Made by a program: the position numbers and the translations under genes
Shown here: in pieces, positions 921 through 33,904 of the stretch
Layout: every line of letters begins with the position of its first letter
Position numbering within the stretch: the stretch's first letter is position 1
Notes under the pieces: model-generated
The model's input: the letters and a program-made list of their open reading frames with translations, nothing else
Databases searched by the model: none
What the model was told of the DNA's origin: nothing
Source of the DNA: an uncultured Bacteroidota bacterium
Lineage (GTDB): Bacteria; Bacteroidota; Bacteroidia; Flavobacteriales; Flavobacteriaceae
Direction: 5' to 3'
Assembly: GCA_902550325.1 (NCBI GenBank)
Contig: CACCYT010000003.1
Coordinates: 37,283 to 101,282 of the forward strand
DNA: 64,000 nucleotides

Positions 921-2303
921 ATGAATAAACTATTAACGATGTATAATAAAGTTGTTTTATTGTTTTTTACGCTTTTTACACTATTTCTTCATTCACAAAA
1001 TGATGATTCTTTCAAAAAGATAAAAATTGATGGTGTTGCAGCTGTAGTTGGTGATTTTGTTATTTTGGATTCAGACATTGATAAGACTTTAATTGACCTT
1101 CAATCTCAAGGTGTTTCAACTGAAAATCTTGATAGATGTAATTTGTTGGGAAAATTGATGGAAGATAAACTTTACGCACATCATGCTGAACAAGATAGTT
1201 TGGAAGTTGATAATCAACAAATTCAAAGTTATGTTGATCAAAGTATTGAATATTTCACATCACAATTAGGCAGTATAGAAAAAGTATTAGAATATTATAA
1301 AAGGAAGGATGAGCAAGCATTCAGACAAGAGCTGTTTGAAATCAATAAAGTAAATCAGTTAGCTCAGTTAATGCAAACTACCATTATTGACGAAATTGAA
1401 ATCACCCCTGAAGAGGTAAAAAGTTTTTTTGATAATATACCAAGATATGACTTACCAATTTTTGGGGCTGAACTTGAGATCTCACAAATTATTGTTAAGC
1501 CTGAGGTTAGTGATGATGATAAACAAAAAATTATTGATAGGCTGGAATCTATTAAAAATGATGTTGTTGTAAATGGCTCAAGTTTTGCCACAAAAGCAAT
1601 TTTATATTCTCAAGACCCAGGAACTAGACCAATGGGAGGTAAGTTAACGCTAGATAGAAAAAGACCTAGAACTGTTAAAGAATTTAGAGATGTTGCCTAC
1701 AGGCTTAAACAGGGTCAAGTTTCAGACCCATTTGAAACAGAATTTGGTTGGCATATTTTAAAAATTGAAAAAATAAGAGGACAAGAAATAGACATAAGAC
1801 ACATACTATTAATTCCAGAAGTTTCAAACTATGCATTAATTGAAGCAAAAAATAAAATCGATCTTATAAGAAAAAGAATTGTTGATAATGAATTGTCATT
1901 TGAGGAAGCAGCAATGTCATTTTCTGATGAAGAAACTACAAAAAATAATGGTGGAGTTTTAATCAACCCAACAACTGGCGATACAAGGTTTGAATTAACC
2001 AAAATTGACCCTGTTTTGTACAACCAAATCCAAAGGCTAAAAGATAATGAAATTTCGGCACCATTATTGGAAGAAGATCGTACAGGAAATAAGAGTTATA
2101 AATTGATAAAAATTAGTAATAGATTTGATGAACATGTCGCTGATTATTCCAAAGATTTTTTAAAGATTAAAGATCTCGCCATGAAAGAAAAACAACTCGG
2201 TACTATTCAAAAGTGGATGAACGAAAAGATTGAAGAAACTTATATTTCCGTTAATCAAGATAGTAGAGATTGTAATTTTTCCAATAAATGGTTAAAAAAA
2301 TAG
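921..2303 (+). CDS. surA: SurA-like periplasmic peptidyl-prolyl cis-trans isomerase
   Basis: Signal peptide, 'IDGVAAVVGDFVILDSDID' N-domain, two parvulin-like repeats (GTRPMGGKLT..., TTKNNGGVL...). Confidence 0.85.
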   Translation: MNKLLTMYNKVVLLFFTLFTLFLHSQNDDSFKKIKIDGVAAVVGDFVILDSDIDKTLIDLQSQGVSTENLDRCNLLGKLMEDKLYAHHAEQDSLEVDNQQIQSYVDQSIEYFTSQLGSIEKVLEYYKRKDEQAFRQELFEINKVNQLAQLMQTTIIDEIEITPEEVKSFFDNIPRYDLPIFGAELEISQIIVKPEVSDDDKQKIIDRLESIKNDVVVNGSSFATKAILYSQDPGTRPMGGKLTLDRKRPRTVKEFRDVAYRLKQGQVSDPFETEFGWHILKIEKIRGQEIDIRHILLIPEVSNYALIEAKNKIDLIRKRIVDNELSFEEAAMSFSDEETTKNNGGVLINPTTGDTRFELTKIDPVLYNQIQRLKDNEISAPLLEEDRTGNKSYKLIKISNRFDEHVADYSKDFLKIKDLAMKEKQLGTIQKWMNEKIEETYISVNQDSRDCNFSNKWLKK

Positions 2304-33500: not shown

Positions 33501-33619
33501 TATAAAATACTAGAAATCAATTAATTATTATATTCTTATTTAAAGGGACTTTAAATATCAAAATCATAAAAAAACATACTAAATTTTATCAAATCAATAA
33601 TTTTTGGTATATTTATGGC

Positions 33620-33690
33620 AAGTCCCGTGTAGACTGGGATTTATAATATAGTCGCGGGTGGAGAGAACGCATCCTGAAAAATCGTTACAT
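33620..33690 (+). ncRNA. Candidate structured cis-regulatory RNA (glutamine-II/'downstream-peptide' riboswitch-like)
   Basis: Hairpin CCCGT(33624-28)+GACT(33632-35) / AGTC(33650-53)+GCGGG(33654-58), followed by interleaved GGA(33660-62)-AACG(33666-69)-TCC(33672-74)-CGTT(33683-86), an H-type pseudoknot; upstream of a short DUF4278-like ORF. Confidence 0.5.
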
Positions 33691-33714
33691 ATGTTTTAAA
33701 TTTAAAATGAATGT

Positions 33715-33852
33715 ATGAAGACTTCAAACCTAACTATTCAAAAATATTTAACATACAGAGGAGTTAAATATAATCCAAACAATATTACTAGAGATAATAA
33801 AAAGTCATCTAATAATTTGGGAGTTTACAGAGGAGTAAAATTTGCTCTATAA
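33715..33852 (+). CDS. Short DUF4278-like protein (45 aa), uncalled in the ORF track
   Basis: MKTSNLTIQKYLTYRGVKYNPNNITRDNKKSSNNLGVYRGVKFAL*; paired LTYRGVxY / YRGVxF motifs as in DUF4278; followed by a terminator. Confidence 0.7.
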   Translation: MKTSNLTIQKYLTYRGVKYNPNNITRDNKKSSNNLGVYRGVKFAL

Positions 33853-33871: not shown

Positions 33872-33904
33872 AATTAAGGCTCTATTATTAGGGCCTTTTT
33901 TTAT
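33872..33904 (+). terminator. Rho-independent terminator
   Basis: AAGGCTC-TATTATTA-GGGCCTTTTTTT. Confidence 0.8.

Follow-up and report, generated by a model that had tools for sequence, protein, structure and literature searches.

A probable cis-regulatory leader RNA preceding very short ORFs in marine Flavobacteriaceae and marine phages: a candidate riboswitch

Riboswitches of the glutamine-I and glutamine-II classes are found in cyanobacteria mainly before genes with DUF4278, a domain that also makes up the N-terminal part of IF17, a glutamine synthetase inactivating factor, and glutamine riboswitches were stated there to be restricted to cyanobacteria (PMC6316151). In the core of glutamine-II the strand CGUU comes first and is followed by GAACG (PMC6698751). 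Yfr6 of Prochlorococcus, a transcript of ~200-250 nt, unites a conserved 5′ RNA with a short ORF (PMC2864571), and reports of glutamine riboswitches in phages cover T4-like cyanophages together with, as predictions in phages of other hosts, a pelagiphage and an OM43 phage (PMC9004378, PMC9964418, PMC9602691). A literature search of partial coverage returned no account of the element described here or of DUF4278 in flavobacteria.

The window, that is the whole analysed stretch of 64,000 nucleotides from an uncultured member of Flavobacteriaceae, contains at 33620-33852 a compact unit whose coordinates and letters, read from the sequence, match the earlier description. A lycopene cyclase gene resembling crtY (Pfam PF05834) lies on one side of it and an asparaginase gene in convergent orientation (PF01112) on the other, in agreement with the gap named in the earlier note, and a gene of GSII glutamine synthetase is 2.2 kb away. 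The order between the flanks is promoter box, GC-richer RNA stretch (33622-33686), 45-aa ORF and terminator; structured RNA, short ORF and terminator, proposed earlier as one unit, were thus all found:

33608 to 33615, forward strand: Bacteroidota-type -7 promoter box TATATTTA (TAnnTTTG-like), read from sequence
33622 to 33640, forward strand: P1 hairpin, GUCCC (33622-33626) with GGGAU (33636-33640) and 9-nt loop GUGUAGACU, by covariation and RNAalifold
33632 to 33653, forward strand: PK1, GACU (33632-33635) with AGUC (33650-33653), H-type pseudoknot on P1, by complementarity
33656 to 33674, forward strand: P2 hairpin, GGGUG (33656-33660) with CAUCC (33670-33674) and loop GAGAGAACG, by alignment and RNAalifold
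33666 to 33686, forward strand: PK2, AACG (33666-33669) with CGUU (33683-33686), H-type pseudoknot on P2, by complementarity
33715 to 33852, forward strand: 45-aa ORF MKTSNLTIQKYLTYRGVKYNPNNITRDNKKSSNNLGVYRGVKFAL, DUF4278, class A peptide, by Pfam PF14105 and purifying selection
33878 to 33902, forward strand: intrinsic terminator GGCUCUA-UUAU-UAGGGCC-UUUUUUU, 7-bp hairpin and seven Ts, read from sequence

For the 65-nt element the most fitting model is a pair of H-type pseudoknots in tandem with a GC linker. Folded thermodynamically by itself, the window copy did not rise above shuffles (z -0.37), so that the evidence for structure is comparative. In an alignment of 66 sequences, 42 columns of which are fully invariant, standard pairs fill 99.2% of the cells of the proposed structure vs 94.5% after shuffling. 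P1 passes through the pair types CG/AU/UA/UG and UA/AU/GC and has 46 cells in which both partners changed (0 of 500 shuffles), which gives the 5′ leader the conserved covarying structure characteristic of a riboswitch. P2, GGGUG/CAUCC (or CACCC), is paired in 100% of the 66 sequences with a change from G-U to G-C in 20, and the GGA/UCC stem suggested by the earlier note proved real as part of this 5-bp helix; RNAalifold, unprompted, returned the same two hairpins. GACU/AGUC of PK1 and AACG/CGUU of PK2 are complementary in 66/66 sequences and invariant, and no variant of PK2 emerged from viral sequences when the AACG positions were left free in the scan. Since neither ever varies, covariation cannot prove either pseudoknot and the support comes from complementarity and geometry; both H-type pseudoknots in tandem occur in 0.15% of shuffles retaining the P1 and P2 hairpins. 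The data for PK1 are accordingly compatible with pairing and do not prove it. The AACG/CGUU contact, previously read from one copy, was seen in all 66; of the two contacts in this half of the element for which covariation was to be sought, GGA/UCC shows the G-U to G-C changes of P2 and AACG/CGUU is invariant. From the longer hairpin CCCGU+GACU/AGUC+GCGGG, also proposed earlier, the GACU/AGUC contact persists in all copies, and the lower stem CCCGU/GCGGG was rejected, having no double-sided change and an outer pair broken in 8/66 sequences. It competes with P1 and P2, GUCCC/GGGAU being the helix that covaries, and could be an alternative conformer. Phage copies with an open frame from the element into the ORF allowed the reading of a hidden protein, which was discarded: in the window copy TAG and TGA interrupt that frame, and the changes follow P1 pairing.

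With a 261-base query, five congeners were found to carry the whole unit and a further three only the RNA, set in other genome contexts. The element is 100% identical to that of the five congeners at 77-99% identity of flanking genes and 58-96% of the upstream spacer; among congeners possessing the unit, the two most distant give values of 100% (element), 86-88% (ORF), 77-82% (flanking genes) and 58-64% (spacer). Within the genus it was found in 9 of 23 genomes, most of them incomplete, and such sporadic presence is as expected for an element gained and lost. Covariance-model search over 795 genomes separated copies at ~80-103 bits from noise at ≤26 bits in the 399 genomes of the family, nine of which gave strong matches, and among the 396 genomes of the order retrieved the window's own copy alone. 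The core pattern was met in 13 IMG/VR contigs, with a few extra by looser patterns, and in 110 GTDB stretches. Of these stretches 68 show the signature of P1 and come, with few exceptions, from MAGs or SAGs of marine Flavobacteriaceae; the remainder are attributable to chance. About 79 distinct copies are known in streamlined marine Flavobacteriaceae and marine phages, distributed by the type of ORF as 40 of class B, 19 of class C, 14 of class A and 6 truncated, degenerate or other. One genome (G371, 7% contamination) has three copies, including a degenerate extra one (L361, C1:70041-70115) with T in the second loop (GAGATAACG), and a contig labelled Bdellovibrionota (L240, JAURDE010000199.1) carries the element and a class-C flavobacterial gene, probably through a binning error.

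The ORFs preceded by the element belong to unrelated families of tiny proteins: YRG/DUF4278 (class A), 'ALEPNQGHA' (class B, of the form M..KIMVALEPNQGHA) and 'MKYYNKTRT' (class C, of the form MKYYNKTRTIEQKVTDRE). The 45-aa product in the window scored 26.6 bits against Pfam DUF4278 (PF14105, cut-off 25.3), as its likeness to this domain had been suspected from the letters, and longer homologues reach 29-41 bits (best 41.4). Conservation of the short ORF, on which the earlier proposal also depended, is evident from its 86-88% identity in the distant congeners and from pN/pS of 0.33 for class A; with 0.29 for class B and 0.27 for class C this indicates purifying selection, and hence real peptides. 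All 6 DUF4278 genes among 60 relatives stand directly behind the element, and in a control set of 14 genomes DUF4278 occurs in the cyanobacterium Synechococcus elongatus alone. The suggested link with the "downstream-peptide" theme holds. The class-C protein is a conserved 40-aa product of Flavobacteriaceae (L381, L382, L383), encoded with or without the RNA upstream and having no Pfam or NCBIfam match; as an obligate target it was rejected, because at least three relatives have the gene without the element, which implies that the RNA was added upstream of it. At four loci (L283, L263, L269 and L270) the interval that separates the MKYYNKTRT ORF from the element contains short frames resembling the class-B start and ending early (MSEKFMSFF in L283), as would result from decay of the class-B peptide or from its conversion into a leader peptide.

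The promoter box is located 7-10 nt upstream of the element, and in many host copies a TAnnTTTG-like box stands immediately before P1, so that mRNA should begin at or just before P1. The ORF follows at 20-45 nt in classes A and B and at 80-180 nt in class C; in the former two classes 43 of 51 ORFs have a terminator-like site behind them. An additional hairpin CGUUA/UAACG, able to compete with PK2, is present in 15/29 host B-class copies (2.6 expected) and 6/18 C-class copies (1.4 expected), and in no class A or phage copy; it is a candidate expression platform limited to some members of the family. In many host copies of class B the promoter is overlapped, ~20-45 nt before P1, by an inverted repeat TGTGAA-N8-TTCACA (L225, L234, L241, L251, L293, L298 and L301; GCGAAAACACTTATTTCGC in L254), a possible transcription-factor operator that would place such units under dual control. 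At one locus of a different lineage (L252) the unit adjoins exchanger and GSII genes, being 1.2 kb from GSII; these neighbours are 44% (exchanger) and 87% (GSII) identical to those in the window, and as both neighbourhoods may descend from one ancestral placement they are counted once. A variant element with GATCC/GGATC as P1 (L296, 7260-7338, reverse strand; L362 in G371) sits before an operon of a SusC/TonB-dependent receptor and a SusD-like protein, with no tiny ORF, and at L009 (G018, 1496-1600, forward strand) a strong terminator comes directly after the element and the ORF is absent.

Several viral contigs are T4-like as read from their genes (tail tube and sheath, GroEL/GroES, NadE). 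Another phage contig (L066) has a GroEL gene and a 22-aa YRG peptide, and phage copies are preceded by the promoter boxes TATATTTAT/GATATTTAT. Among 50,697 records of named phages neither a full-length DNA match nor a peptide match was found, and three short DNA matches were taken as chance. Search for the glutamine-II sequence in phages by blastn gave no match, and a comparison check on pelagiphage HTVC008M found no glutamine riboswitch.

Membership in the glutamine-II family, proposed in the earlier note, was not borne out. With cmscan against Rfam 15 (4227 models) only chance-level matches were obtained for the window and its relatives; RF01704 and RF01739, the two models suggested for comparison, gave none even at E≤10, and for RF01704 (gathering score 33) nothing exceeded the cut-off in 31 genomes including that of the window. 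The order expected for RF01704 (5′ CGUUCA strand, P1, ACGC linker, P2 with the GGGAACGG loop strand) is absent, as here GAACG precedes CGUU, and both families were therefore rejected, for glutamine-II also on account of the reversed strands. The setting of RF01704, upstream of short ORFs that often encode DUF4278, is reproduced.

All this is best accounted for by a new cis-regulatory leader RNA acting on downstream tiny proteins, a riboswitch candidate that we regard as probable with some reserve. The element is a conserved structured RNA with covarying P1 and a fixed place between promoter and ORF; the ORFs are under selection and terminators follow them, and hosts and phages alike carry the element before several unrelated ORF families, as expected of a sensor serving several genes. 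The unit would represent a small autonomous mRNA, its promoter firing 7-10 nt ahead of the RNA domain (P1/PK1 and P2/PK2), with a very short ORF 20-45 nt further on and usually a terminator. Working in cis, the 65-nt domain would bind a ligand (a metabolite or, less likely, a protein) in a candidate site built from loops and linkers that do not vary, and the pseudoknots, lying near the ORF start, would by their state set the output of the small protein. Regulation in cis is inferred, and the ligand would report nitrogen status, glutamine being the leading guess owing to DUF4278 and to the phage parallel with cyanobacterial glutamine riboswitches, a parallel that is striking but indirect. This explanation is opposed by the lack of a uniform expression platform across classes A, B, C and phages, by the ORF-less L009 locus, which suits a trans-acting RNA, and by class B and C peptides having no known nitrogen link.

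As a special case of this candidate, the two tandem pseudoknots might form a structurally unrelated third class of glutamine (or nitrogen-status) riboswitches, with the ligand and targets of glutamine-I and -II in a different fold and converged on DUF4278 control, possibly by a strand-swapped CGUU/GAACG helix. DUF4278 targets, carriage by T4-like phages, streamlined marine genomes, the GSII neighbourhood in two lineages and the glutamine-II core letters of PK2 with its flanks argue for such a class; reversed strand order, no Rfam similarity, the unrelated peptide controlled by most copies (class B), a copy before a SusC/TonB receptor and the chance that a 4-bp helix may coincide make it doubtful, and we are equally hesitant about this class jointly with its extension to control of two further, undescribed tiny-protein families. 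That the 5′ domain is itself the active product, a dual-function or trans-acting small RNA with a secondary short ORF, appears unlikely: autonomous promoter-RNA-terminator units at differing places of the genome, invariant unpaired letters and L009 conform to it, while three ORF families under purifying selection, the fixed position of the element upstream of them and the addition of the RNA to class-C genes existing elsewhere without it do not. Rather improbable is a ligand-free role as a passive 5′-end stabiliser or translation enhancer of a short, highly expressed mRNA, since the 42 invariant columns, loops and linkers included, far exceed generic need and the element is rare in the family, even though it begins at the inferred transcription start and precedes, in hosts as in phages, tiny proteins of unrelated kinds with no uniform switch. 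Scattered presence in varied contexts, phage copies and the degenerate extra copy in G371 could also be produced by a mobile or recombination site acting as DNA; compensatory changes in P1, constant orientation between promoter and ORF and the lack of a recombinase regularly nearby leave this reading a very slim chance.

Under the favoured reading as a cis-regulatory leader, heterotrophs abundant in the ocean, and the viruses infecting them, possess a candidate regulatory RNA of strong conservation without Rfam entry, linked with three tiny-protein families that have scarcely any annotation. A Bacteroidota counterpart of the glutamine riboswitches on DUF4278 targets would clearly exemplify convergence in RNA sensing. 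Compact H-type pseudoknots in 5′ leaders are shared with SAM-II, preQ1 and fluoride riboswitches, from which the element differs by two pseudoknots in tandem, tiny-peptide targets and no Rfam match. Yfr6 similarly joins a 5′ RNA to a short ORF, but its leader is a Downstream-peptide RNA with no sequence match to the element. Glutamine-I (glnA motif, RF01739) stands upstream of gifB, coding for IF17 with its N-terminal DUF4278 part, and its core letters GGAACG may be a further likeness to the element; its three-way junction with loop E is unlike the fold proposed here, and no Rfam match connects them. The closest likeness is to glutamine-II (Downstream-peptide motif, RF01704), an RNA of ~60 nt with a CGUU/AACG pseudoknot in the leader of very short ORFs, with DUF4278 targets in marine bacteria. 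The core letters thought earlier to be those of glutamine-II are indeed shared (the CGUU/AACG helix of PK2, the G in front of it and the GC before P2), though in swapped strand order, and are to be taken as a lead, not as homology. Glutamine-II has its pseudoknot strands reversed relative to the element, which possesses an extra upstream P1/PK1 pseudoknot, and whereas glutamine-II belongs to cyanobacteria, the element belongs to Bacteroidota and extends to peptides other than DUF4278.
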